From: Terriglobales bacterium
GTDB taxonomy: Bacteria; Acidobacteriota; Terriglobia; Terriglobales; Acidobacteriaceae
DNA length: 39,877 nucleotides
Assembly: GCA_035454605.1 (NCBI GenBank)
Contig: DATIGQ010000015.1
Location: forward strand, 1-39,877
Direction: 5' to 3'
The notes under the pieces are model-generated. The model made no database searches. It saw only the letters and a program-made list of their open reading frames with translations, and was not told the DNA's origin. This document shows positions 19,156 through 37,157 of this stretch, in pieces (within the stretch, counting starts at the first letter, position 1; the number at the start of each line of letters is the position of its first letter). The position numbers were made by a program, and so were the translations under genes.

Positions 19156-19300
19156 AAGGGAGCCGGACTGTAAAGAGATGAAAACGGCGCAACTCTCGGG
19201 TATATTTGGCTCCCCATCGAACGGATTCCGCGCCCGTCCCTACATGCAGGATCGCCGGACCCGTGGGCCGCACTTCAGGAAGCGAGGGAGACAGCGCTCC

Positions 19301-20539
19301 ATGAGAAAGATCGCGATTGTCGGAGCCGGACAATCCGGCCTGCAGTTGGCGCTAGGGCTGCAGCAGCAGGGTTACGGCGTCACCGTCGTCTCCAACCGCA
19401 CGCCCGAGCAGATTCGCGCCGGCCGGGTCACATCCAGCCAGTTCATGTTCCACGACTCCTTGCAGAACGAGCGCGACCTCGGCATCAACCTCTGGGAGAA
19501 GCAGTGTCCCATCACCGAAGGCATCGCCTTCTCCATCCCTGCTCCCGATGGCAGCCGCGCTCTCTTCTGGGAGGCCCGGCTCGACCACTACGGCCAGTCC
19601 ATCGATCAGCGCGTGAAGTTCTCGGGTTGGATGGCGGAGTTTGCTCGCCGCGGCGGCAAGCTGGTGATCGAGGACGCCGGTCCGGAGCACCTGGAGCAGT
19701 ACGCCCACACCCACGACCTCGTCCTGGTCGCTTCCGGCAAGGGAGAAATCGCCCGCCTGTTCGAGCGCGACGCCTCCCGCTCTCCCTACTCCACTCCCAT
19801 GCGCGCCCTCGCGCTCACCTACGTCACCAACATGGTGCCCCGCGAGCCCTACCCCGCGGTGGCCTTCAGCCTCATGCCCGGCGTGGGCGAATACTTTGTT
19901 TTCCCCGCCCTCACCCTCAGCGGCCCCTGCGAGATCATGGTGTTTGAAGGCGTGGTCGGCGGGCCCATGGACTGCTGGCAGGATGTGAAAACGCCCCAGC
20001 AGCACCTGGCCCGCAGCAAGGAGATCCTCGCCAAGTTCCTGCCCTGGGAAGCCGCGCGCTGCCACAACATTCAACTCACCGACGACATGGGCATCCTGAC
20101 CGGCCGCTTCGCCCCCACCGTCCGCAAGCCTGTCTGCAAGCTGCCGTCCGGCGCCGTGGTCCTGGGTATGGCGGATGTAGTGGTGCTCAACGATCCCATC
20201 ACCGGCCAGGGCTCGAACACTGCCAGCAAGGCGGCGAAGGTGTACATGGACCGCATCCTGGAGCGCGGCTCGAAGCCCTTCGATGCCGCCTGGATGCAAG
20301 GCACCTTCGATGCCTTCTGGAGCTACGCCCAGTGGGTGGTGCGTTGGACCAACTCGTTATTGGTGCCACCTGAGCCCCAGATCCTGCAGCTCATGGGCGC
20401 CGCCAGCCAGATTCCGGCGCTCGCCAGCCGGATCGCGAATGGATTTAACAACCCGCCGGACTACAGCCCTTGGTGGTTCGGCACCGCAGAGGCCGAATCC
20501 CTGATTCAGCGCCTGCAGAAGGAGGCGTCGGTCGCCTAG
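19301..20539 (+). CDS. StyA-like FAD-dependent styrene/indole-type monooxygenase
   Basis: 412 aa, matching StyA length. I start at ATG 19301, preceded by GAGGGAG at a good distance; the open frame extends upstream to 19178, but the FAD motif GAGQSG then sits wrongly far from the N-terminus. Features are GAGQSG at 8-13, the IDQRVKFSGWM block, TPMRALALTYV, GEYFVFPALTLSGPCEIM, and the late GMADVVVLNDPITGQGSN. It closely resembles the N-terminal domain of the divergent fusion protein, with long shared stretches such as VFEGVVGGPMDCWQDVKTP. It has no reductase domain and so depends on reduced FAD from outside, most simply from the fusion. The amidase gene follows on the same strand after 133 bases. 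Confidence 0.88.
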   Translation: MRKIAIVGAGQSGLQLALGLQQQGYGVTVVSNRTPEQIRAGRVTSSQFMFHDSLQNERDLGINLWEKQCPITEGIAFSIPAPDGSRALFWEARLDHYGQSIDQRVKFSGWMAEFARRGGKLVIEDAGPEHLEQYAHTHDLVLVASGKGEIARLFERDASRSPYSTPMRALALTYVTNMVPREPYPAVAFSLMPGVGEYFVFPALTLSGPCEIMVFEGVVGGPMDCWQDVKTPQQHLARSKEILAKFLPWEAARCHNIQLTDDMGILTGRFAPTVRKPVCKLPSGAVVLGMADVVVLNDPITGQGSNTASKAAKVYMDRILERGSKPFDAAWMQGTFDAFWSYAQWVVRWTNSLLVPPEPQILQLMGAASQIPALASRIANGFNNPPDYSPWWFGTAEAESLIQRLQKEASVA

Positions 20540-20672: not shown

Positions 20673-21782
20673 ATGGTTGAGCAATATATGGCTCTGGCTT
20701 TGCAGCCCACCATGCGCGGCTGCCGCAAGCGTTCCGAAGTCATCACCAACCTCAAGCACATCGGCGAACTCATCGACGCCTCGGTGTGGCTCAGCGCCAT
20801 CGATCTCCCCGTGCGCTTGATCACCATCCCCGAGGGCTCTCTGCAAGGCTTCACCGATGAGGTCTTCGACTGGGACCATCGCAAATACGTGCAGGAGATG
20901 GCGCTCGATATCCCCGGTGACGAAACCGAGTTCCTGGGTCGCAAGGCGCGTCAGCACAACGCCTTTGTCATCGCCCAGGCCAAGGTGAAGCACCCCGAGT
21001 TTCCCGAGCGTTTCTTCAACTGCGCCTTCATCATCGACCCCAGCGGCAACGTGATCCACCGGCACTACAAGCTGCAGGTGTTCGCGCGCGAGCACTCCAC
21101 CGTCCCCCACGACGTGTGGGATCGCTGGGTGGAACTCTATGGCGAGAACCTGGACGCCTTCTACCCGGTTTGCGATACCGAGATCGGCCGCATCGGCACC
21201 ATCATCTGCATGGAGGGCTCCTATCCGGAAACGGCCCGCGGCCTGGCCATGAACGGTGCCGAGATCATCTACCGGCCCAGCTACCCTGAGCCTTACGTAG
21301 CCAACGGCTTGTGGGAGATCCAAAACCGTGCCCGCGCCTTGGACAACACCTGCTATGTGATCGCTCCCAACGTCGCCTGTTACTACCTGACGCAGGAGTC
21401 GGAAACCGCCATCGACACCTTCGGCGGCGCGTCCATGATCGTCGACTACCAGGGACGCATGGTTTCCGAACACAAGTACGGTTCGGGTTCCTCCTACGCC
21501 GGAGGCATCATCGACATCGAAGCTCTGCGCCAGTACCGCACGCGCTCCCTGTGGGGCAACTGGATGAAGGACCTGCGCACGGAACAGTACCGGTTGATCT
21601 ATGACCGGCCCATCTACCCCAAGAACCTGTGCCTGGAGGAACCTCCCCGCCGGCACGAGCAGAACGACGCCATCGTTCGCGCCCAGATCGAGTCGATGAT
21701 TGACCGCGATATCTTCCGGCGCGCGGGCACGAAGAAGGGCGAAGCGAAAGAGCGGCCCGCCGAAAAAGTGCTCGCCGATTGA
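20673..21782 (+). CDS. CN-hydrolase (nitrilase superfamily) aliphatic-amidase-like enzyme
   Basis: 369 aa. The Glu-Lys-Cys triad of the nitrilase superfamily is intact: E54 in IPEGSLQGF, K133 in RHYKL, and C179 in IICMEGSYPE. E140 in AREHS corresponds to the second glutamate of AmiE/AmiF-type amidases. The DIPGDETEFLGRKA segment and GSYPExxRxLAMNGAE after the cysteine resemble aliphatic amidase and formamidase, although the residues directly after Cys (M-E-G) differ from the C-D-D-G or C-H-D-G of those enzymes. It probably hydrolyses an amide or carbamoyl-type C-N bond, releasing ammonia. A very strong ribosome-binding site (AGGAGGTG, 20661-20668) fixes the start. A nitrilase gene follows, and a paralogue lacking the Cys lies at 33529. 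Confidence 0.87.
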   Translation: MVEQYMALALQPTMRGCRKRSEVITNLKHIGELIDASVWLSAIDLPVRLITIPEGSLQGFTDEVFDWDHRKYVQEMALDIPGDETEFLGRKARQHNAFVIAQAKVKHPEFPERFFNCAFIIDPSGNVIHRHYKLQVFAREHSTVPHDVWDRWVELYGENLDAFYPVCDTEIGRIGTIICMEGSYPETARGLAMNGAEIIYRPSYPEPYVANGLWEIQNRARALDNTCYVIAPNVACYYLTQESETAIDTFGGASMIVDYQGRMVSEHKYGSGSSYAGGIIDIEALRQYRTRSLWGNWMKDLRTEQYRLIYDRPIYPKNLCLEEPPRRHEQNDAIVRAQIESMIDRDIFRRAGTKKGEAKERPAEKVLAD

Positions 21783-21864: not shown

Positions 21865-22980
21865 ATGAAGCCCCAGCAAAAGGTCCTGGGTGGTCGAGAC
21901 GTGGTCAAGGTGGCCGTCGTGCAGACTCCACCGGTCTACCTCGACCGTGAGCGCAGCGTGGAACGCGCCTGCCAGAAGATTGCGCAAGCCGCCGAGCACG
22001 GGGCGGAACTCATCGTCTTCACCGAGACCTGGCTGGCCGGCTACCCCTATTGGGGCGAGGGTTGGGAGTCGAAGCTCAATGACTGGGTGCCGGTGCGCAT
22101 CCGCTTCTATGACAACGCCCTGCTGATTCCCAGCGAAGACACCGAACGCCTCGGCGAGGCGGCCGCCAAGGCCAACGCGTACGTCGTGATCGGCTGCAAT
22201 GAGATGGATCCACGCCGCGGCGTGCACACCATCTACAACACTCTGCTTTTTCTCGATCGCTCCGGGAAGGTCCTCGGACGCCATCGCAAGACCATGCCCA
22301 CCTTCGTCGAGCGAGCGGTGTGGGGCAACGGGGACGGCAGCGACCTGGTCACCTATGACACCGACATCGGCCGTATCGGCGGCCTCATCTGTGGCGAGCA
22401 TCTCATGACCCTCATCCGCGCCCGCATGATCGAACAGGGCGAGGACTTCCACATCGCCGTCTTTCCGGGAGCTTTCGCGCTCCACTGCGGGCCCAAGTTG
22501 GAAGAGGCCGATGTCCAGGGCCAGTTCTTCTGGGGCCACACCCAGACGCGCGCCCATGCCCTGGAAGCGGGCGCGTTCGTGCTTTCCGCCTGCGGATACA
22601 TCACCCAGGACGATATCCCGGCAGACTTCCCCCTGCGGGATACCATCAATGTGGACTACGCCCAGGGCGGCAGCCAGATCGTGGCCCCGCTCGGTATCCC
22701 CCTGGTTCCCCCTACAACCGGCGACACCATCCTCTATGCCGAATGCCGCGCCGACATGATCAAGGTGTGGAAAGCCATCATCGATACCGTCGGCCACTAC
22801 GCCCGCCCGGACATCGTGCGACTGCAGTACACCGGCGCGCCGGCGCAGACTGCGGAACTGGTGAATACGGCACTGGAAAAAACTCCGCGTGACCGTTTGG
22901 ACGAAATCGCCGAACAACATGGCGTGAGCCGCCAAAGCGTCGAAACAGCACTGGAAGACCTGACCCGGCGCTCCGCCTGA
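21865..22980 (+). CDS. Nitrilase
   Basis: 371 aa, the length of true nitrilases, which convert a nitrile to a carboxylic acid and ammonia. The triad is E54 in FTETWLAGYPYW, K142 in RHRKTMPT, and C176 in GLICGEHL. The nitrilase-specific TMPTFVERAVWGNGDGSDL block follows the lysine. The residue after the catalytic cysteine is Gly where most nitrilases have Trp (C-W-E), a possible pointer to altered substrate range. Cyanide-acting and arylacetonitrile enzymes are alternatives. The last 31 residues (341-371), LDEIAEQHGVSRQSVETAL and neighbours, read like a helix-turn-helix. The ATG is preceded by GGAGGGAACA. It shares strand and proximity with the amidase and the TonB-dependent receptor. Confidence 0.9.
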   Translation: MKPQQKVLGGRDVVKVAVVQTPPVYLDRERSVERACQKIAQAAEHGAELIVFTETWLAGYPYWGEGWESKLNDWVPVRIRFYDNALLIPSEDTERLGEAAAKANAYVVIGCNEMDPRRGVHTIYNTLLFLDRSGKVLGRHRKTMPTFVERAVWGNGDGSDLVTYDTDIGRIGGLICGEHLMTLIRARMIEQGEDFHIAVFPGAFALHCGPKLEEADVQGQFFWGHTQTRAHALEAGAFVLSACGYITQDDIPADFPLRDTINVDYAQGGSQIVAPLGIPLVPPTTGDTILYAECRADMIKVWKAIIDTVGHYARPDIVRLQYTGAPAQTAELVNTALEKTPRDRLDEIAEQHGVSRQSVETALEDLTRRSA

Positions 22981-23086: not shown

Positions 23087-23208
23087 CCTCGGTGTACGTA
23101 GCTCACAGGTGCTCCGGTCACGAGTCACTGACACGACCGCTGCCTGCGGCCATCCTCTTCGCCATCCGGGGGATGAACCTAAGCTCCCCTTTTTTGCGGG
23201 AGAAAATG

Positions 23209-26200
23209 ATGACAACTGGACCCAGAAATACACATCGCGCAGTGTTGGCCTTGGGTGTGGCGATTTGCCTCGCGCTGGTTCTTCCGGTGGCTCAAGCTCA
23301 AACTTTGGCCAGCGTTTCCATTTCCATCCAGGACCAGACCGGGGCGGTGATTCCCCAGGCCAAGGTCGTTCTCAAGAGCATCGCCACGGGATTGCAGCGT
23401 GAAGCCACGGCGGATGGCCACGGGTTCGCGCAAATCGTCAACCTTCCCCCCGGGGTATACGAGCTGGGTGTCACGGCCGAACACTTCAAGCCGGCCACCC
23501 GCACCCTTCACCTGGAGGTCGGTCAGAGTGCTTCCGTTCCTATGACCCTGGTGGTGGAGACCACACAGGAAGTCACGGTGTCGGCGACCGAAGAGGGCGT
23601 GAGCACCTACAAGGCCGAGGTGAGTGAGGTCCTGAGCGAACGGCAGATTCACAACCTGCCCATCAAGGGACGCAACTTCATCGACTTCGTGATGCTGACG
23701 CCCGAAGTCACCCTCGGCAACAGCACCTCGGTGGGCAGTCAGGCGCCGTTCACCGAACAGACCCCCAAACTGAGTTTCGGCGGAGTGCGAGAGACCCACT
23801 CGGTATTCATCTCGCTGGATGGTGTCGACTACACCACCGGACTCTCCGGCTTGCAACGCGCTTCTCCCGCCCAGGACTGGGTACAGGAGTTTCGCGTGGT
23901 CACCGGAAGCTACGAGTCCGAAGTAGGGCGCACTCTAGGCGGGATCGTCAACACCGTCACCAAGTCCGGCACCAACCGGTTCCATGGCGGAGCCTACGAG
24001 TTCTTCCGCAACGGCGCCATCAATGCGAACAATCCCCTGGCAACTTCCAATGTAATCCGCCTGAACCAGTTTGGTGTCAATCTCGGCGGACCCATTGTCA
24101 AGGAAAAGACCTTCTTCTTCACCGGATACGAGGGACAGCGCCGGGGGCAGTCGCCCATCTACTCCAGCTTCATCTTGGCCACCATCGACCCGGACCCGGT
24201 CGCCTGCCCCGTCCTCCCGCCGCCCGGTACATTCAATCCGGCATGTATCAGCATTAACGGCACCAAGAATTTCTTCGGCCTGCAGCCGGAGAACCTGGCC
24301 TCAGTCCTCATCGTCAACGATTACGACAAGCTCATCGGCAAGGCGGACCACCAGTTCTCCAGCAACACGCTGCTGACGACGCGCTACCTGTTTTCCGACG
24401 AGCGCAATGAAGACACGCCTGGCGCCCCTCCGGGACTGGGATTGCCGAGCAGCTTCCGCTCCAACCCCATTCGGGATCAGTCCGTGGCCGCCAACCTGAT
24501 TCACACCTTCTCCCCCCGGGTTGCCACCGACACCATCGTGCAGTTCGCTCGTCGTACTTTCCACTTGGATCCCGTAGGCGCCGGTCGCGAACCGTTCATG
24601 GCCCTGGTCAACCTGGCGCAATCCGGCGGCCCCGTGGGAAGCTTCACCTTCTACCGCGAGAACCGGCTGCAGGTCGGCCAGAATGTGACCTACACCTTCG
24701 GCAATCACACCCTCAAGTTCGGCGGGGAGTTTCACAACATCTGGAACACCACCAAGTCCCCGATGTTCACCCCGGGCGTGGCGGCCTTTTGCCCGGACAG
24801 CTACTTTGGCACGCCCAATGTGTTCGGCTGCGGCGATTTCTCTGGCCTCGGCCCGACCGCCTTGGTGTTCTACTTCGGCATGCCGCGGTCCCTCTGGGGT
24901 CAGCCCTTGATCCCGCGCGGCACCGACTGGCAGGCCGGCCTGCTGCCTCAGACCATGTTCGACGAATTCGACGCCGCTTCCTCCGCGGATTTCACCCGGC
25001 AGATTTACAGCCTGTATATCCAGGATAAGTGGCGTATCGGTTCGCGCTTTACCCTGACATTCGGATTGAGGTACGACAATGAAACCCGGCCTTTCCACGA
25101 GCGCGACTGGTATCAGCCGGACCGCAACAACTTCCAGCCTCGCGTCGGATTCGCCTATTCCCCGGACGACAAGACGGTGATCCGTGGTGGCTTCGGCATC
25201 TACACCGGCCCCTTCAACTGGAGCGAGCTGGTGGGAACCACGACCGCTTTTGGCCCCGTCAACGGCTACATGAACAACCCCTTCGTGGGTGCGTTCGTCA
25301 ATCCCACCGAGACTCTGGTGGGCCTGGCCTTTTTCGGGCCCGTGGGCGTCGTCCCCGGCCCCTTCACCGCGGGTGTGGCCTTTGCCAACTTCACGGCCAC
25401 CGGCACCTACCCGGATCCGTCGCAACTCATCGGGTTTTCGCACGGCTTCACAACCCGCGATTTCCCCAATCCCTATGCGGAAAACGCCAGTCTGCAGGTG
25501 GAGCGGCAGTTAGGCAAGGACGTGCAGATTTCGGTGGGCTACTCCTTCATTCACGCGCTCAAGATCCACTACTGTGGATGCCAGACCAATGTCAGGCCCG
25601 ACGGGTTCCTGCCCAACGGGAAGGAAAGGCTGGCGCTCGCCGACCCCAACTTCGGCTTCGCTTTCCTGGATGAGCCCGCTGGGTACTCCATCTATCACGC
25701 CGGCTTCGTCACCGTGAACAAGCGCTTCAGCCACCACTTCAACTTCACCGCCAACTACACCTGGTCGAAGTCGATTGACAATCAAACCACCATCCAGTAC
25801 GCCACCGGGGCGGAGAACTACCTGCGCAAGGACCTGGAGCGTGCGGTATCCGATAATCACGTAGCGCACCGCTTCATCCTTACCGGACTGGCGGATTCAC
25901 CGTTCCGTAACTGGCTGGCCAAGAACTGGAGCCTGGGCCTCACCACGACCCTGCAAACCCCGCGCTACCAGGCGGTTCAGGTCGGATTCGACGTCAACGG
26001 CGACGGCTTCCCCTTCACCGATCGCGTCGGCCGGCTGGGCCGCAATACCTATCGCGGCGATGTGTTTCACAATATCGACCTGCGCGTGCAGCGCGACATC
26101 CCCTTCACCATCTCCAAGAGCGAAGCGCACCTGAATTTCAGCTTCGAGGTCTTCAACCTGTTCAACCGCGCCAATGTGCTTGATGTGAATAACATCTACG

Positions 26201-26334
26201 GCGCGCCCGACCTCATCGGGCCGGAACCGCGGCAGTTCGGGGATGGCGTGGGCGGAGCGAATCCCGGCTTCGGCCAGCCCCGCAGCATCGGCGACGCGCG
26301 CCAGTTGCAGTTCGCGCTTCGCCTGACGTTCTAG
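23209..26334 (+). CDS. TonB-dependent outer-membrane receptor with carboxypeptidase-regulatory-like domain (Oar-like), copy 1
   Basis: 1041 aa from ATG 23209. The frame is open further upstream, but this ATG has GGGAG at proper spacing and gives a clean signal peptide (hydrophobic stretch then AQAQ near residue 30). Residues ~32-117 are a CnaB/carboxypeptidase-regulatory-like fold (DQTGAVIPQAKVVLKS, LPPGVYELGVTAEHFKPA). A plug region follows (LPIKGRNFIDFVMLTPEV, then LDGVDYTTGLSGL), then a large beta barrel ending in the aromatic residue F. Proteins of this build import large or scarce solutes in Acidobacteria. It stands between the nitrilase and the molybdenum hydroxylase genes and is a close paralogue of the receptor at 30210. 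A CRP-like site lies upstream. The transported compound is unknown. Confidence 0.9.
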   Translation: MTTGPRNTHRAVLALGVAICLALVLPVAQAQTLASVSISIQDQTGAVIPQAKVVLKSIATGLQREATADGHGFAQIVNLPPGVYELGVTAEHFKPATRTLHLEVGQSASVPMTLVVETTQEVTVSATEEGVSTYKAEVSEVLSERQIHNLPIKGRNFIDFVMLTPEVTLGNSTSVGSQAPFTEQTPKLSFGGVRETHSVFISLDGVDYTTGLSGLQRASPAQDWVQEFRVVTGSYESEVGRTLGGIVNTVTKSGTNRFHGGAYEFFRNGAINANNPLATSNVIRLNQFGVNLGGPIVKEKTFFFTGYEGQRRGQSPIYSSFILATIDPDPVACPVLPPPGTFNPACISINGTKNFFGLQPENLASVLIVNDYDKLIGKADHQFSSNTLLTTRYLFSDERNEDTPGAPPGLGLPSSFRSNPIRDQSVAANLIHTFSPRVATDTIVQFARRTFHLDPVGAGREPFMALVNLAQSGGPVGSFTFYRENRLQVGQNVTYTFGNHTLKFGGEFHNIWNTTKSPMFTPGVAAFCPDSYFGTPNVFGCGDFSGLGPTALVFYFGMPRSLWGQPLIPRGTDWQAGLLPQTMFDEFDAASSADFTRQIYSLYIQDKWRIGSRFTLTFGLRYDNETRPFHERDWYQPDRNNFQPRVGFAYSPDDKTVIRGGFGIYTGPFNWSELVGTTTAFGPVNGYMNNPFVGAFVNPTETLVGLAFFGPVGVVPGPFTAGVAFANFTATGTYPDPSQLIGFSHGFTTRDFPNPYAENASLQVERQLGKDVQISVGYSFIHALKIHYCGCQTNVRPDGFLPNGKERLALADPNFGFAFLDEPAGYSIYHAGFVTVNKRFSHHFNFTANYTWSKSIDNQTTIQYATGAENYLRKDLERAVSDNHVAHRFILTGLADSPFRNWLAKNWSLGLTTTLQTPRYQAVQVGFDVNGDGFPFTDRVGRLGRNTYRGDVFHNIDLRVQRDIPFTISKSEAHLNFSFEVFNLFNRANVLDVNNIYGAPDLIGPEPRQFGDGVGGANPGFGQPRSIGDARQLQFALRLTF

Positions 26335-30209: not shown

Positions 30210-33200
30210 ATGCGTCGACGTTTCGTTGAAGTGATTGCGACATTGATTGCTGCAGTCGTGTTTCTCATGGGCAGCGCCCTCGGCCAGCAACTGGCTACTT
30301 TGAGGCTGACCGTGGATGACTCCACCGGAGCCGTCGTTCCCGGCGCCAACGTCACACTGAGAAACAAGGAGACCGGCGCGAAGCGTACCGCCGTCACCGA
30401 CGCCAATGGCTCGGCTGTGCTTGCGGGCGTTCCCGCCGGCAGCTACGACCTGACGGCAGAGGCCAAAACCTTCAGCCCGCAAACCGTTCCCGTGCAACTC
30501 ACCGTCGGCCAGATCGCGACTCTCACCGTCCGCTTGGGGATCGAGGTGCGCCAGCAGGTCGAGGTGCAGGCTACGGCCCAGACCATCGATCCGGAAAAGT
30601 CTGACGTCAGCCAGGTCATCGAGTCGCGCAAGATCGCCGATCTTCCCATCTCCGGACGCGACTTCATCGACTTCGTATTGCTCACCCCCTCGGTGGCGGT
30701 GGGAAGAAGTACTGCGGTCGGCGCCCAGTCGCCCTTCACCGAGACCGTCCTCAAGCTCAGTTTCGGCGGCACGCGCGAGAGCCACACTTCCTTCTTCGCG
30801 CTCGACGGCATCGACTACACCACCAGCATCTCGGGCGTGCAGCGCGTCAGCCCTTCCCAGGACTGGGTGCAGGAATTCCGGGTCGTGGAAAGCCCTTACA
30901 ACACCGACACCGGACGCAGCCTGGGTTCGGTCGTCAACACCATCACCAAGTCCGGCACCAATGACCTGCACGGCACCTTGTACGAGTACTTTCGCAACAA
31001 CGCGTTGAATGCCAATAATCTTCTGTCGGCGCCCGGGTTTACCACCCTGCGATTCAACCAGTTCGGCGGCACCTTGGGCGGACCGCTCCGCAGGGAAAAG
31101 AACTTCTTCTTCGCCGGGTATGAAGGCCAGCGCCGGGCGGAGTCGCCCATTTACTCCAGTTTCATCCTCAACACCATCAACCCGAATCCAGCCACCTGCC
31201 CGGTGTTGCCGCCGCCCGGAACCTTCAATCCCGGTTGTCTCAGCATCAACGGCAGCAAGCAGTTCTTCGGCTTGCAGCCGGAGACTCTGGGCTCCATCCT
31301 TTCCGTGGACAACTACGACAAGTTCTTCGTCAAGATCAACAACGTCCTGAGCGAGCGCACCTTCTGGAACATCGGCTACCTGTTCAACGACACCCGCAAG
31401 GAAAACGTCCGTGGCGCGCCTCCGGGCGAGGGCTTGCCGTCTTCGTACCGCGATAACCCGGTCCGCGACCAGACTGTGTACACCAACCTGATCCACGTCC
31501 TTTCACCGGAGTGGACCACCTCCACGCTGTTGCAGTACGGCCGCCGCACCTTCGACCTCATCCCCAAAGGCGCAGGGCTGGAACCCGCCATCAGCATTCC
31601 CAATCTGCTTTCCGGCGGCGGATTCGTGGGCAGCGTCCGCTTCTATCGCGAGCAGCGCGTGCAGTTTGCGGAAAACGTTACCTGGACGCACGGCAAGCAC
31701 ACCGTCAGATTCGGCGGTGAGGTCCAGCCCGTCTGGACCAACACCCAGGTGCCGCTGTTCACTCCTGGCTTCGGGGTCTTCTGCCCCGACGGCTTCTTCG
31801 GACTGCCCATCTCCGGCTGTCGCCCCACGGTCACCCAGCCCATCGAGGAAGTCTTCCTTTTCCTCGAGCCGCGCGAATTCTTCGGCCAGCCCATCCCCGC
31901 GCGCACCGCTCCCTTCTTTAGCGACCTGTTCACCGGTCCCGCGGCCTCCATCTTCGACAACAGCACCCGAGTCAGCTACGTGCACAAGCTCTATTCGCTC
32001 TACGTGCAGGACCAGTGGCGGGTGAAGCCCAACCTCAGTCTGACCCTTGGCCTTCGCTACGACGTCGATGTCCTTCCGTCGGCCGTCGATACCAAGACCA
32101 CCGGCCCCGATCTGGTGAGCCCCGGTGCTTTCCATCCCACCGACTACAACAACTTCCAGCCACGCATCGCGTTCGCCTACTCGTTCCGAGGCGGCAAGGA
32201 CGTCCTGCGCGGTGGCTACGGCCTGTTCACCGCTCCTTTCGTTTACAGTGACATCCTGGTGAGCTGGATCGGCGCTTCCGAGTTCACCTACATGCTCGAT
32301 TCGAACGTCGGTCCCTTCGGCCCGCCCTTGCTGCCGGAATTCTCCGATCCCAATAACACCCTCATTGGATTTGGAGCTTCCGGGGCAGTCGGGCTGCCAT
32401 CCGGCATCTTCCCCGGACCTTCTGCCTTCTTTAACTTTGCCAGCACGGGCGCCTACCCCACGCCCATCGGTCCCTTCCCGCTGCAGTTCCCGTTGGGCTA
32501 CGCAATAAGGGATTTCCCCAACGCCTATTCGCAACTGGCCAGCCTCGAGCTGGAACATGAGCTCAGCAAGAACTGGTTCTTCTCCGCCGGATACCAGTAC
32601 ATTCACGCCCTGAACCTGCCCATCTACGACAGCGTGAATGGCCTTCCCAACCCGAATGGACGCGACCCCGTCACCGGCGTTCCTCTCCCTTGCGCTCCGG
32701 CCGGTTCCGTGGCTCCCACCCCGGTCGGCAAGGAGACCTTCTGCCCGGCCGATCCCAGTTTCGGCTTCACGCTCTACGTGCATCCCGCGGGATTCTCCAT
32801 CTACCATGCGGGCACAGCTAGCCTGCGCAAGAACTTTGCCAATCACTACAGCATCCTGGCCAACTACACCTATTCCAAGTCCATCGATATCTCCACCACC
32901 ATCAACCTGCCCAACGTGCCGGAAAACTACTTGCGGCACGACTTGGACCGCTCCGTCGGCGACAATGACATCCGCCATCGCCTCACCGTGGCGGTGTTGG
33001 GCGAGTCGCCCAAGCAGTGGCCGCGCATCGTGCGCGACTTCAAGGCTTCCATCCTGATGAACGCGCAGAGTGCGCGCTTCTTCACCATCAATGCCGGCTT
33101 CGACACCAACGGCGATATCTTCCCCTTCTCCGACCGCGTCGGCACCATCGGACGCAACTCGTACAAGGGCGATCCCTATTTCAATATGGACTTGCGGGTC

Positions 33201-33434
33201 CAACGGGGATTCCCGCTTACCGAGAAGCTTCGGGCGGATTTCAGCGCGGAGTTCTTCAACCTGTTCAACATCGTCAACGTCCAGGACGTAAGCCACGTGT
33301 ACGGCGCTCCCGATTTCTTTACCCCGATTCCGCAGGAGTTCGGCGATGGCATCACCACGCCCGCCGGCTTCGGGACGCCCAAGTTCGCTGCGCCGGCACG
33401 GCAGATTCAGTTCTCCATCCGCTTGAGCTTCTAG
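30210..33434 (+). CDS. TonB-dependent outer-membrane receptor with carboxypeptidase-regulatory-like domain (Oar-like), copy 2
   Basis: 1074 aa. The signal peptide (IATLIAAVVFLMGSALG) is followed by a regulatory-like domain (DDSTGAVVPGANVTLRN, VPAGSYDLTAEAKTF) and a plug region (LPISGRDFIDFVLLTPSV, LDGIDYTTSISGVQRV). A long beta barrel ends in SIRLSF. The aligned plug blocks show it is a close paralogue of the receptor at 23209, and both carry the same VLPPPGTFNPxCxSING insert in the barrel. It lies directly before the Cys-less amidase paralogue, which mirrors the first receptor's closeness to an amidase and nitrilase. The start has a purine-rich AAGGGGG region upstream. Substrate unknown; probably related to that of copy 1. 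Confidence 0.9.
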   Translation: MRRRFVEVIATLIAAVVFLMGSALGQQLATLRLTVDDSTGAVVPGANVTLRNKETGAKRTAVTDANGSAVLAGVPAGSYDLTAEAKTFSPQTVPVQLTVGQIATLTVRLGIEVRQQVEVQATAQTIDPEKSDVSQVIESRKIADLPISGRDFIDFVLLTPSVAVGRSTAVGAQSPFTETVLKLSFGGTRESHTSFFALDGIDYTTSISGVQRVSPSQDWVQEFRVVESPYNTDTGRSLGSVVNTITKSGTNDLHGTLYEYFRNNALNANNLLSAPGFTTLRFNQFGGTLGGPLRREKNFFFAGYEGQRRAESPIYSSFILNTINPNPATCPVLPPPGTFNPGCLSINGSKQFFGLQPETLGSILSVDNYDKFFVKINNVLSERTFWNIGYLFNDTRKENVRGAPPGEGLPSSYRDNPVRDQTVYTNLIHVLSPEWTTSTLLQYGRRTFDLIPKGAGLEPAISIPNLLSGGGFVGSVRFYREQRVQFAENVTWTHGKHTVRFGGEVQPVWTNTQVPLFTPGFGVFCPDGFFGLPISGCRPTVTQPIEEVFLFLEPREFFGQPIPARTAPFFSDLFTGPAASIFDNSTRVSYVHKLYSLYVQDQWRVKPNLSLTLGLRYDVDVLPSAVDTKTTGPDLVSPGAFHPTDYNNFQPRIAFAYSFRGGKDVLRGGYGLFTAPFVYSDILVSWIGASEFTYMLDSNVGPFGPPLLPEFSDPNNTLIGFGASGAVGLPSGIFPGPSAFFNFASTGAYPTPIGPFPLQFPLGYAIRDFPNAYSQLASLELEHELSKNWFFSAGYQYIHALNLPIYDSVNGLPNPNGRDPVTGVPLPCAPAGSVAPTPVGKETFCPADPSFGFTLYVHPAGFSIYHAGTASLRKNFANHYSILANYTYSKSIDISTTINLPNVPENYLRHDLDRSVGDNDIRHRLTVAVLGESPKQWPRIVRDFKASILMNAQSARFFTINAGFDTNGDIFPFSDRVGTIGRNSYKGDPYFNMDLRVQRGFPLTEKLRADFSAEFFNLFNIVNVQDVSHVYGAPDFFTPIPQEFGDGITTPAGFGTPKFAAPARQIQFSIRLSF

Positions 33435-33528: not shown

Positions 33529-34596
33529 ATGATCAAGCCCTATACAGCCGTCGGTCTCATCCCTGCCATTCGTGGTATCCGCACCCGCAAAGACATCAAG
33601 GTCAACCTCGAGCACCTCAAGCACCTGGTGAAGGCCGCCAGTTGGCTCTCCGCTCTCGATATCCCCGTGCGCCTCATCGTCGTGCCCGAGGGCGGCTTAC
33701 AGGCCTTCAATGACGAGGTCCTCGACCTCGACCATGTCCAGTTCGCCCGCAAGTGCGCCATTGACATTCCCGGCGAGGAGACCGAGGAACTGGGCAAAAT
33801 CGCCCGCGAATACAACTCCTTCATCATGGCCCAGGCCAAGGCCCGCCATCCCGATCTGAAAGACCGTTTCTTCAACGTCGGCTTCGTCATCAATCCGCGC
33901 GGCAAGGTCATCCTCAAGCACTACAAGGTTTCCCCGCTGTTCCCCGTCGAGCATTCGGTTTGCCCGCACGATGTCTACGACTGGTGGGTGGAAAAATACG
34001 GTCGCAACCTGGACGCCTTCTGGCCGGTCGTGGATACCGAGATCGGCCGCCTCGGCATCATGATGGCCAACGAAGGCTCCTATCCCGAGAACGCCCGCGC
34101 GCTGGCCCTCAACGGCGCCGAAGTCGTCTACCGTGCCTCCTACCCGCATCCCGGGACCGGCAACGATTTCTTCGAGATCCAAAGCCGCGCTCGCGCCCTG
34201 GACAACAACTTCTATGTCGTAGCGCCCAACCTCGGCACCTACTACCTCTTCCCCGAAAGCGCCACCCCCATCGACACCTTCGGCGGGCGCTCGTTCGTCA
34301 TCAATTACAAGGGACAGATCGTGGGCCGTCAGGAATACAGCGGCTGCGCCACCTACGTGGCCGGCGTCATCGACATCGAGGCCCTGCGCGACCATCGCGC
34401 CCGCGCGCAGTGGGACAACTGGCTCAAGGACCTCCGCACCGAGCTTTACCAGATCCTGTACGAAAAGCCCATTTACCCCAAGAACCTGTATCTCAAGCGC
34501 GAGCCCATGAAGCACGCCGAGTACAAGTCCAAGGTCATCAAGCGCCAGATCCGCCTCATGCACGACCGCGGCATCTGGAAAAAGCCCAGCCGCTGA
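33529..34596 (+). CDS. CN-hydrolase (nitrilase superfamily) paralogue lacking the catalytic cysteine
   Basis: 355 aa and collinear with the amidase at 20673 over nearly its whole length (PVRLIVVPEGGLQAF, DIPGEETEELGK, RFFNVGFVINPRGKVILKHYK). E54, K133 and E141 of the active site are kept. The nucleophile is not: where the paralogue has IICMEGSYPE, this protein reads MMANEGSYPE, so the catalytic Cys is Ala180 (codon GCC at 34066-34068). There is no neighbouring Cys that could substitute. The frame is otherwise intact with a good AGGA ribosome-binding site, so this is not simple decay. It may be a non-catalytic partner of the amidase, a binding protein, or an enzyme using another mechanism. It heads a same-strand group with a RutB-like hydrolase, an LLM enzyme and an alpha/beta hydrolase. 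Confidence 0.85.
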   Translation: MIKPYTAVGLIPAIRGIRTRKDIKVNLEHLKHLVKAASWLSALDIPVRLIVVPEGGLQAFNDEVLDLDHVQFARKCAIDIPGEETEELGKIAREYNSFIMAQAKARHPDLKDRFFNVGFVINPRGKVILKHYKVSPLFPVEHSVCPHDVYDWWVEKYGRNLDAFWPVVDTEIGRLGIMMANEGSYPENARALALNGAEVVYRASYPHPGTGNDFFEIQSRARALDNNFYVVAPNLGTYYLFPESATPIDTFGGRSFVINYKGQIVGRQEYSGCATYVAGVIDIEALRDHRARAQWDNWLKDLRTELYQILYEKPIYPKNLYLKREPMKHAEYKSKVIKRQIRLMHDRGIWKKPSR

Positions 34597-34637: not shown

Positions 34638-35306
34638 ATGTCTTCCAATCTCAAGCCCAGTGACTTCTTCACCGCCGATCCCCGGCGGTCGGCTCTCATC
34701 GTCATTGACATGCAGAATGCCTTCGTCGCCGAGGGCGCTCCCTTTGAGACGCCGGGGGCGCGCGCCATGCTGCCGCGCCTGGAACGGCTCATCCGCTTTG
34801 CCCGCGAACACCGCATGCCCATCGTCTGGACCCAGTCCGACCACCGGCCTCCCTACGGCGGCCTGATGCTGCGCAAGTTTCCCATCATCCAGCAGCAGCG
34901 CGTGCTGTGGAGTGGCGAACCCAGCTTCGACATGTATCCCGAGATGTTGCAGCCCGAAGAAGGCGCGCTCGAATACCGCATTGTGAAGCACAAGTTCGAC
35001 GCCTTCTTCGAGACCGACCTCGACGCCATCCTCCGCTTTCACCACGTGGAGACCGTCATCGTCACCGGCACCGCCACCAACGCTTGCTGCGAATCCACCG
35101 CGCGCACCGCCTTCATGCGCGACTACCAGGTGGCCTTCCCCAGCGACGCCAACGCGACCTTTGACGCAGCCATGCATGAGGCCACGCTGCGCAACATCGA
35201 GTTGCTGTTCGGCCGCGTGATGACCACCGACGAACTCCTGGCGGAAATGGAGGGAGCGCTCGCTCCGGTTGCAGGTTCTGCCCAGAGTCATTTGCGCCGG
35301 TCCTGA
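34638..35306 (+). CDS. Isochorismatase-family cysteine hydrolase, RutB-like
   Basis: 222 aa from ATG 34638, which has GGAGA upstream. The triad is D24 (VIDMQNAF), K117 (VKHKFDAFF) and C150 (TATNACCEST). The TNxCxESTxR segment and the later EATLRNIELLFGRV tail recall RutB, the ureidoacrylate amidohydrolase of the pyrimidine Rut pathway, and N-carbamoyl or maleamate amidohydrolases of the same family. It should cleave an amide or carbamoyl C-N bond of a ring-opened product. The order isochorismatase hydrolase, LLM enzyme, alpha/beta hydrolase has the same enzyme classes as RutB, RutA and RutD. It lies 41 bases after the Cys-less amidase paralogue. Confidence 0.85.
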   Translation: MSSNLKPSDFFTADPRRSALIVIDMQNAFVAEGAPFETPGARAMLPRLERLIRFAREHRMPIVWTQSDHRPPYGGLMLRKFPIIQQQRVLWSGEPSFDMYPEMLQPEEGALEYRIVKHKFDAFFETDLDAILRFHHVETVIVTGTATNACCESTARTAFMRDYQVAFPSDANATFDAAMHEATLRNIELLFGRVMTTDELLAEMEGALAPVAGSAQSHLRRS

Positions 35307-35392
35307 TTCGGAAGATGGGTGCTCGGTACGGATAACAACATCGCGCGGCGCGCTCAACCGCACGCAACGTAGACGCTCTTGGCAGGTGTGAC

Positions 35393-36391
35393 TTGGCGAT
35401 TCGATTCAGCATTGCCTTTCAAGGCAGCAAGCCTTTGAAGGAGTACATCCGGCTGGCTCGCATGGTGGAGCAGTACGACTTCGACGCCATCACTGTGTAC
35501 GACGACCTGATGTTCAAGCCCACCTGGCCCATCCTTACCCTCATTGCGGAGCACACCGAACGCGTGCAGGTAGGGCCGGCCATCGTGCATCCCTTTCTTG
35601 TCCATCCGGCCTACACGGCCGGCAACCTGGCCGAACTCGATGAGATCAGCGAGGGCCGGGCGATTCTGGGCATCGGACGCGGAGCCTTTTATGAGTTCCT
35701 TGGCATCCACCCTGAGCGGCCCATCACCGCGGTGCGGGAAGCCATCCGGCTCATACGACGTCTGCTGGCCGGCGACCGCACTCCGTTCCAGGGCCAGGTG
35801 TTCACCGCCACGCCCGAGGCCTCGCTGCGCTGGAAGCCTTTGCGCGCCGATGTGCCGATTTTCGTCGGTACCTGGGGCCCGAAGATGTGCCAGGTGGCGG
35901 GCGAGCTGGCCACGGAAACCAAGTCCGACTGCCTGTGGAACCCCGACTACGTCAAGATCATCCGTCAGAACATCGACATGGGCGCGCGCCGGGCCGGCCG
36001 TGACCCGAAAGACATCGGCATCGCCGCCGGACCTTTATGCGCCATCTCCAACGACCGCGAGGCCGCGCGCAAGATGGCTCGTCTGGCCCTGGCGGTGTAC
36101 CTGCCGTACCTGCATCCCATGACCGAGGTGGCCGGCATCGCGCCCGAGGAGATTCGTCGCGTCCGCGAAGCGGCAGCGCGTGGCAACTTCGAGGAGGGCG
36201 CGACCTATGTCTCCGACCTCTCCGTGCAGAAGTGCTCGGTGGCAGGCCGTCCTTCCGACGTCATCCCGCAGATGGAAACCATGATCGCCGCGGGAGTCAC
36301 GCACATTGCTTTCGGCCACCCTCTCGGCCCCGATTTCGAGCAGGCGCTGCACTTGATCGGCCGCGAGATTATTCCCAGGTTCCGCCGCTAG
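35393..36391 (+). CDS. LLM-class flavin- or F420-dependent oxidoreductase, Mer-like
   Basis: 332 aa. The luciferase-like barrel is evident from EYIRLARMVEQYDFDAITVYDDL near residue 15, QVGPAIVHPFLVHPA near 60, GRAILGIGRGAFYEF near 86, and PIFVGTWGPKMCQ near 155. It resembles methylene-tetrahydromethanopterin-reductase-like members, many of which use F420, but FMN use cannot be excluded. The start is TTG at 35393 with AGGTG six bases upstream; the next in-frame ATG would remove the first conserved strand. It is not closely similar to the LLM protein at 16279. In this context a ring-oxidising or ring-opening monooxygenase is possible, by analogy with RutA. Confidence 0.82.
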   Translation: MAIRFSIAFQGSKPLKEYIRLARMVEQYDFDAITVYDDLMFKPTWPILTLIAEHTERVQVGPAIVHPFLVHPAYTAGNLAELDEISEGRAILGIGRGAFYEFLGIHPERPITAVREAIRLIRRLLAGDRTPFQGQVFTATPEASLRWKPLRADVPIFVGTWGPKMCQVAGELATETKSDCLWNPDYVKIIRQNIDMGARRAGRDPKDIGIAAGPLCAISNDREAARKMARLALAVYLPYLHPMTEVAGIAPEEIRRVREAAARGNFEEGATYVSDLSVQKCSVAGRPSDVIPQMETMIAAGVTHIAFGHPLGPDFEQALHLIGREIIPRFRR

Positions 36392-36431
36392 CGGCGGTTC
36401 GCGGCAGCACACGTATCGTAGGAGATCGCAA

Positions 36432-37157
36432 ATGTCCAACTTCGTTCTGATTCACGGCTCTTGGCACAGCGGCGACGCCTGGAGCCAGACCGCGCAGCAC
36501 CTGAAAGCGGCAGGTCACACCGTCTTCACTCCCACCATCGCCGGCCACGGCAAGGACAGCAACAAGGCCGTCAATCACGCCCAATGCACCCAGTCCATCG
36601 TGGACTACATCGCCGGCAACGACCTGCGCGATTTCGTTCTGGTGGGACACAGCTTCGGCGGCACCATCATCGCCAAGGTCGCCGAAGTCATGCCCGAGCG
36701 CATCCGCCGCCTGGTTTTCTGGAACGCCTTCGTGCTCCAGGACGGCAACTGCCTGCTCGATGAGATTCCGCCCTACTACCGCGAGCTGTTCGACCAGCTC
36801 GTCCGCCAGTCCGCCGACCACACCGTCCTGGCGCCTTTCCCCATCTGGCGCGAGGCCTTCATCAACGACGCCGACCTCGCCCTCGCCAAGTCCACTTACG
36901 AATCTCTTTCGCCCGAGCCCTACCAGCCATTCCAGGACAAGCTGGACATGAAGAAGTTCTATTCCCTCGAGATTCCCCGCAGCTTCCTCAACTGCACCGA
37001 GGACATCGCGCTTCCTCCCGGCGAATGGGGCTGGCATCCCCGCATGTCCAGCCGCCTGGGGCTCTGCCGCCTGGTGCAGATGCCCGGCAGCCACGAGGCG
37101 CTCTTCACCAACCCCAAGGGCCTGGCGGAAAAGCTCATCGAAGCCGGACGAGACTAG
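36432..37157 (+). CDS. Alpha/beta hydrolase of the plant-esterase/hydroxynitrile-lyase-like type
   Basis: 241 aa. The nucleophile elbow is GHSFGG with S74. D191 (NCTEDIALP) and H221 (GSHEAL) complete the triad. The compact form, FVLIHGSWHSGDAW start and MPGSHEALFTNPKGLAEKL end are those of the small esterase group that also contains plant methyl esterases and Hevea-type hydroxynitrile lyases. The lyase hallmarks, a Thr after L-I-H and a Lys after the catalytic His, are Gly9 and Glu222 here, so hydrolysis of an ester or amide is more likely than cyanohydrin cleavage. AGGAG is well placed before the ATG. It is the last gene of the right-hand catabolic group, 40 bases after the LLM gene. Confidence 0.83.
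   Translation: MSNFVLIHGSWHSGDAWSQTAQHLKAAGHTVFTPTIAGHGKDSNKAVNHAQCTQSIVDYIAGNDLRDFVLVGHSFGGTIIAKVAEVMPERIRRLVFWNAFVLQDGNCLLDEIPPYYRELFDQLVRQSADHTVLAPFPIWREAFINDADLALAKSTYESLSPEPYQPFQDKLDMKKFYSLEIPRSFLNCTEDIALPPGEWGWHPRMSSRLGLCRLVQMPGSHEALFTNPKGLAEKLIEAGRD

Follow-up and report, generated by a model that had tools for sequence, protein, structure and literature searches.

The nitrilase superfamily is defined by a cysteine nucleophile, and we know of no natural catalytic use of the nitrilase fold without it. In the formamidase AmiF, the cysteine attacks, a glutamate moves the proton, and a lysine stabilizes the transition state (PMC10781810). In MtCPA, two glutamates help to orient the substrate, and a mutant in which the nucleophile was exchanged (C158S) still binds putrescine (PMC4812014). 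Searches of the open-access literature found no relevant paper on nitrilase homologues that lack the cysteine naturally, and neither Pfam and NCBIfam nor that same literature yielded a described family like this one. The stretch of DNA analyzed here, which we refer to as the window (39,877 nucleotides from a Terriglobales bacterium), encodes an amidase-like protein with the cysteine and a paralogue in which alanine stands in its place. We call the latter the Ala protein and, together with its alanine-bearing relatives, the Ala family.

The alanine protein and its active site

The two genes and the codons of the active site are as follows.

33529..34596, + strand: cysteine-less nitrilase-fold protein, 355 amino acids (open reading frame, Pfam, alignment, AlphaFold2, Foldseek)
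33688..33690, + strand: GAG codon of Glu54, general base of the superfamily triad (Glu in 95 of 95 family members)
33925..33927, + strand: AAG codon of Lys133, the triad lysine (Lys in 95 of 95)
33949..33951, + strand: GAG codon of Glu141, the second glutamate (Glu in 95 of 95)
34066..34068, + strand: GCC codon of Ala180, in the position of the catalytic cysteine (Ala in 95 of 95)
20673..21782, + strand: paralogue with intact Cys179, along with Glu54, Lys133, and Glu140 (alignment, codons)

The reading frame at 33529-34596 runs through 355 codons with no internal stop, and its product contains a CN_hydrolase domain (PF00795; 97.8 bits against a Pfam cut-off of 23.2). Pairwise alignment gives 54% identity with the 20673-21782 product, the two differing in length only by an extra residue in the Ala protein ahead of Glu141 and small changes at the C terminus. 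Both the codons and this alignment bear out an earlier note on the same DNA, which had described a paralogue aligning without large gaps that keeps Glu54, Lys133, and Glu141 while Cys179 (TGC, 21207) has become Ala180 (GCC, 34066). Since the step from TGC to GCC takes two base changes, a single-base sequencing error is excluded as the source of the alanine.

The structure prediction places the protein among amidases. An AlphaFold2 model made from 34 window and locus sequences (pLDDT 79.7, pTM 0.86) has its lowest confidence at residues 63-66, 138-144, and 208-210. When it was searched with Foldseek, the top match was AmiF (2dyu, E 9e-23), aliphatic amidases were also ranked first, and the alpha-beta-beta-alpha nitrilase fold was matched with a TM of about 0.65-0.8 to AmiF and the amidases. 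The domain, the fold, and the Glu, Lys, and second Glu expected of the superfamily are thus all present, and the catalytic cysteine is the one feature that is missing. Judged from its sequence, the active site looks like that of an ordinary amidase apart from the nucleophile. A sequence search pointed to the same enzymes as Foldseek and aligned the loop that leads to the second glutamate, KVSPLFPVE in the Ala family, with KLFPWNPIE of AmiF, while the cysteine-bearing paralogues have a shorter loop there (FAREHS-type versus LFPVEHS). We had considered a coordinated remodeling of the loop before Glu141 and dropped the idea, as the P-x-E loop of the Ala family is formamidase-like and the cysteine-bearing paralogues are the deviants.

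Conservation of Ala180 and other losses of the cysteine

Ala180 is found together with the Glu/Lys/Glu set in all 95 family members, which are 39-93% identical to the window protein and cover at least eight bacterial phyla plus haloarchaea; metagenome-assembled genomes are the source of most of them. When one genome per prokaryote species was scanned, 80 loci turned up at 68-91% identity, all of them with Glu, Lys, Glu, and Ala. One of the six search seeds covered the alanine site, but 40 of the 80 matches carry another seed too. The loci belong to Acidobacteriota, Rokuibacteriota, Chloroflexota, Pseudomonadota, Myxococcota, Actinomycetota, Binatota, Dormibacterota, and Methylomirabilota. Unbiased searches, run with the protein against about 800 Acidobacteriota genomes and by tblastn against plasmids, returned alanine in every homologue of at least 62% identity, and both types at 50-55% identity, where haloarchaea have alanine and Acidobacteria have cysteine. 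Specifically, the Acidobacteriota genomes contributed additional members at 82-93% identity, and plasmids contributed proteins from Tsukamurella (62%), three haloarchaea (52-54%), and Flammeovirga (39%), all with alanine.

The coding sequences point in the same direction. Across the 95 members, all four alanine codons are used at position 180 (GCC 50, GCG 25, GCA 10, GCT 10), and pairwise dN/dS was 0.01-0.11 in the eleven pairs computed. Furthermore, in comparisons between the same genomes, the Ala protein was more similar than the cysteine-bearing paralogue (93.2 versus 89.7%, 83.4 versus 73.2%, and 83.7 versus 73.5%). Because the alanine is universal, dN/dS is low, and the Ala protein is the better conserved of the two, we attribute the loss of the cysteine to selection and not to decay, in agreement with the earlier note, to which the loss looked selected. 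Relatives that all carry cysteine would have refuted that note; instead, 95 of 95 carry alanine. These proteins show one hallmark of pseudoenzymes, the loss of an essential catalytic residue in a homologue kept by selection; the other, an absence of activity, would not hold if they carry out thiol-independent chemistry. The Ala family is almost certainly an ancient, selectively maintained nitrilase-fold family in which alanine has replaced the cysteine. A private mutation or an early pseudogene would be in keeping with the gene of one genome (G566), which is split by a frameshift or an assembly error at about residues 219-224. Yet this explanation has next to no probability and is refuted by the orthologues, given alanine in 95 of 95, the low dN/dS, the varied codon use, and the two base changes between TGC and GCC. 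The split copy itself lies at G566:C109:1625-2631 (L119/L126), with its break near residues 219-224.

A tree of 69 relatives, which has long branches and lacks a firm root, places the 25 representatives of the core Ala group on a single branch with full SH-aLRT support (100) and the close cysteine-bearing relatives (n=16) on the neighboring branch. The haloarchaeal and Flammeovirga proteins fall outside both. A second group with alanine for cysteine (L130, L131, and L132; LLAFDGKFPEA) belongs to Acidobacteriota family f62, and its L130/L132 pair is nested among cysteine enzymes, which suggests that this group lost the cysteine independently. In addition, eight Acidobacteriota proteins of the nitrilase fold (L009, L011, L014, L017, L019, L020, L021, and L030) sit on a very long branch and have serine for the cysteine, arginine for the lysine, and no second glutamate (ASEEILYPE); they represent another natural loss of the nucleophile. 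With a second alanine pair nested among cysteine enzymes and a serine group far away, this region of the superfamily has seen at least two losses of the cysteine; given the long branches and the lack of a firm root, any order of events, count of losses, or regain of the cysteine read from the tree is tentative. The relatives also include a distinct cysteine-bearing subfamily (CCSDGEYPEA; L140 from Paracoccus aminophilus pAMI1, L141, L143, L040, and L124), whose neighbors are an amidohydrolase and an M20 metallohydrolase on Streptomyces and Tsukamurella plasmids and ABC transporter genes on pAMI1.

Genomic context and indole-linked neighbors

Several genes of the window surround the Ala gene and its paralogue.

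19178..20539, + strand: StyA/indole-monooxygenase-type flavoprotein, true start probably near 19301 (profile and PDB matches)
21865..22980, + strand: nitrilase, with nitrilases as its closest solved relatives; also present in the L073 and L085 clusters
30210..33434, + strand: Oar-like outer-membrane receptor (CarboxypepD_reg and TonB-type beta barrel), directly upstream of the Ala gene
34638..35306, + strand: isochorismatase-fold cysteine hydrolase (75 bits to RutB), directly downstream of the Ala gene
35393..36391, + strand: luciferase-like (MER/F420-type) oxidoreductase
36432..37157, + strand: alpha/beta hydrolase, found near the Ala gene also in a genome of the same genus (L113)

One proposal of the earlier note was that the Ala protein is a regulatory or structural subunit that assembles with the cysteine-bearing paralogue (20673) or with the nitrilase (21865). 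The Ala gene and the paralogue do share one cluster in the window and in G573, G398, G405/L073, and G566. However, when 39 carrier genomes, 35 of them distinct because four came up twice, were searched with the paralogue at E <= 1e-40, the Ala protein itself was the sole match in 29 of the 35, and a further member was present in 6. Incomplete metagenome-assembled genomes would hide some cysteine-bearing relatives, but not most. The Ala gene is kept without such a relative even in streamlined marine Alphaproteobacteria of 1.4-1.7 Mb, and Ala180 is equally strict in genomes that lack one. The Ala protein does not depend on the paralogue. With the relative absent from so many genomes, an obligate partnership is rejected, and service as a subunit of the cysteine enzyme is not supported as the general role of the family; we now regard this proposal as improbable. 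A special role of this kind may exist in the genus of the window, where both genes lie in one cluster.

Among Acidobacteria, the surroundings of the gene are orderly. At 13 loci, the StyA/indole-monooxygenase-like flavoprotein is followed by the amidase and nitrilase in some cases, then by the Oar receptor, and then by the Ala gene. The earlier note had suggested looking at orthologues beside Oar-like receptors, and all of them have alanine; most Acidobacterial copies directly follow such a receptor. In the window, the flavoprotein, nitrilase, Oar receptor, and Ala gene lie farther apart, with a xanthine-dehydrogenase-type set and another Oar gene in between; this extra stretch appears to have been inserted into, or duplicated within, a cluster that is conserved in other respects. 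The three genes of the xanthine-dehydrogenase-type set are flanked by two large Oar-like receptors at 23092-26334 and 30210-33434. The best PDB match of the window flavoprotein is 7z4x (581 bits, versus 130 bits to StyA, 3ihm), which we take to be an indole monooxygenase of Acinetobacter; a search of the open-access literature did not yield a paper that describes 7z4x as such an enzyme. Downstream of the Ala gene, the trio at 34638-37157 (RutB-like isochorismatase, luciferase-like oxidoreductase, and alpha/beta hydrolase) recalls the Rut pyrimidine pathway. We rejected a Rut-like pathway as the role of the family, since other phyla do not have this trio next to the Ala gene.

Outside the Acidobacteria, the commonest neighbor is a gene for a TrpB2-type tryptophan synthase (TIGR01415). 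TrpB2 is present in 22 of the 35 genomes, and in 13 of these 22, spread over five phyla, it lies within 10 kb of the Ala gene, compared with a chance expectation of about 0.3 of 22 (for about 20 kb in genomes of at least 1.4 Mb, with related genomes not independent). The neighboring TrpB2 proteins retain the PLP lysine and the glutamate motif TETGAGQWG. Canonical TrpB was present in most of the 12 genomes tested (fragmentary or not found in three), so that TrpB2 is mostly an extra. According to a passage in PMC11917138 that cites Hettwer and Sterner 2002, TrpB2 enzymes have a high affinity for indole and bind it tightly. The flavoprotein occurs in 8 of the 13 genomes without TrpB2 versus 2 of the 22 with it (Fisher p 0.002), a split that follows phylogeny. 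On the Tsukamurella plasmid, an isatin hydrolase (257 bits) lies 13 bp upstream of the Ala gene, with an indolepyruvate oxidoreductase and a salicylyl-CoA 5-hydroxylase/oxidoreductase close by. The latter family is found near the Ala gene in three phyla (Tsukamurella, one chloroflexote, and one myxococcote locus). Isatin is an intermediate in the breakdown of indoleacetate (PMC6117287), and 2-aminobenzoyl-CoA monooxygenase provides one route of anthranilate use (PMC6221969). In seven alphaproteobacterial loci, mostly marine (L091-L098 except L094), the Ala gene forms a single row with a tartrate/isopropylmalate-dehydrogenase-type gene and TrpB2.

Linkage to indole-using genes (TrpB2, StyA/indole-monooxygenase-like, and isatin hydrolase) thus recurs in unrelated lineages, and we consider an indole-linked role for the Ala family somewhat more probable than its absence. 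Yet the same kind of neighbor is not found with every member: haloarchaea, Afipia-type bacteria, many Chloroflexota, and others differ. Other contexts include aldehyde and alcohol dehydrogenases, xanthine-dehydrogenase-type genes, and a haem-dependent demethylase-like gene, and the neighbors on haloarchaeal plasmids are uninformative. Given such varied neighborhoods, the catabolic contexts may simply be mixed, and the indole pattern could reflect bias in how we read them.

Possible functions and comparison with known systems

The Ala family probably does a different job from its amidase relatives. The loss of the cysteine with the other three residues kept fits ligand binding or thiol-free chemistry, not the standard mechanism. 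We tentatively propose that the family takes part in indole-type metabolism and, as the slightly favored option, carries out thiol-independent chemistry. The old amidase pocket would hold a small indolic ligand (an amide, a lactam, or an acid), whose polar group Lys133 and the two glutamates would grip; the chemistry could then proceed by Glu-activated water, by proton transfer, or by lyase-type cleavage. Thiol-independent catalysis in place of pure binding is a possibility toward which we lean slightly, because Glu54, Lys133, and Glu141 do not vary across such distant relatives, when drift would be expected in a mere scaffold, and because the serine group, by contrast, has exchanged its lysine for arginine and lost the second glutamate. 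A more specific version, in which a Glu-Lys-Glu enzyme would release or transform an indole compound and the neighboring indole-monooxygenase-type enzyme would oxidize the freed indole or TrpB2 would capture it, is speculative and rather unlikely as it stands. If true, it would be the first natural catalysis on this fold without cysteine that we know of.

Alternatively, the protein could be a noncatalytic sensor, carrier, or regulator. Alanine would then leave a pocket that stably traps the former substrate or an analogue of it, and the loaded protein would control the neighboring enzymes or supply them with ligand. Such a role is nearly as likely as thiol-free catalysis, though we would still bet against it, and the substrate-binding protein that the earlier note had listed is still a candidate. 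The invariant Glu/Lys/Glu set is also expected for amide binding alone, as it would hold an amide, and alanine, unlike serine, abolishes both thiol and hydroxyl chemistry. Moreover, a nucleophile mutant from the superfamily, C158S of MtCPA, still folds and binds putrescine (PMC4812014). On the other hand, a domain search of the window protein, a single domain of 355 amino acids, found no DNA-binding or fused signaling domain, and the neighbors are mostly enzymes and transporters with no conserved regulator among them. Far less plausible is an ordinary thiol amidase with a relocated nucleophile, of which we know no case in the nitrilase superfamily. Cys145, four residues past Glu141, was the candidate, and position 145 is indeed cysteine in 88 of the 95 members (serine in 4, threonine in 3). 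It is a weak substitute, since 27 of 38 cysteine-bearing homologues have serine or threonine there and the residue is therefore not specific to the loss of the cysteine. Between the remaining alternatives, our slight preference is for thiol-free chemistry.

Proteins of the Ala family are annotated by default as carbon-nitrogen hydrolases. Since they have fixed alanine across many phyla, archaea included, retain the remaining active-site residues, and persist in genomes that lack an active paralogue, this annotation is probably wrong for the whole group. The nitrilase fold would then have a second use, one that is directly testable, and the gene neighbors supply a short list of candidate indolic ligands that bear on the turnover of auxin and indole in soils and in the sea.

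The Ala family is a cysteine-less variant within the known nitrilase superfamily, and no described family in Pfam, NCBIfam, or the open-access literature searched matches it. It shares with AmiF of Helicobacter pylori and Bacillus cereus the fold (Foldseek matches 2dyu, 2e2k, and 5g3p), the Glu and Lys of the triad, and a second glutamate in a P-x-E loop, but it lacks the catalytic cysteine and is only about 22% identical in structural alignment; the window protein scored 54 bits against the curated formamidase family, well below its cut-off of 406. Likewise, the fold (2uxy, 2plq, and 4lf0) and Glu-Lys-Glu set are shared with AmiE of Pseudomonas and Geobacillus pallidus, but again the cysteine is not, and the window protein scored 48 bits against a cut-off of 427 for the curated aliphatic amidase family. 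The cysteine-bearing paralogue group (window 20673, L120-L123, L005-L007, and L140-L143) is closer, with about 40-57% identity, similar length, and the same Glu-Lys-Glu set, but differs by its cysteine and the shorter FAREHS-type loop before the second glutamate. The nearest parallel for a missing nucleophile with fold and pocket kept is MtCPA C158S in complex with putrescine (5h8l), which still binds its ligand (PMC4812014). That loss was engineered, whereas in the Ala family it is natural, ancient, and fixed.
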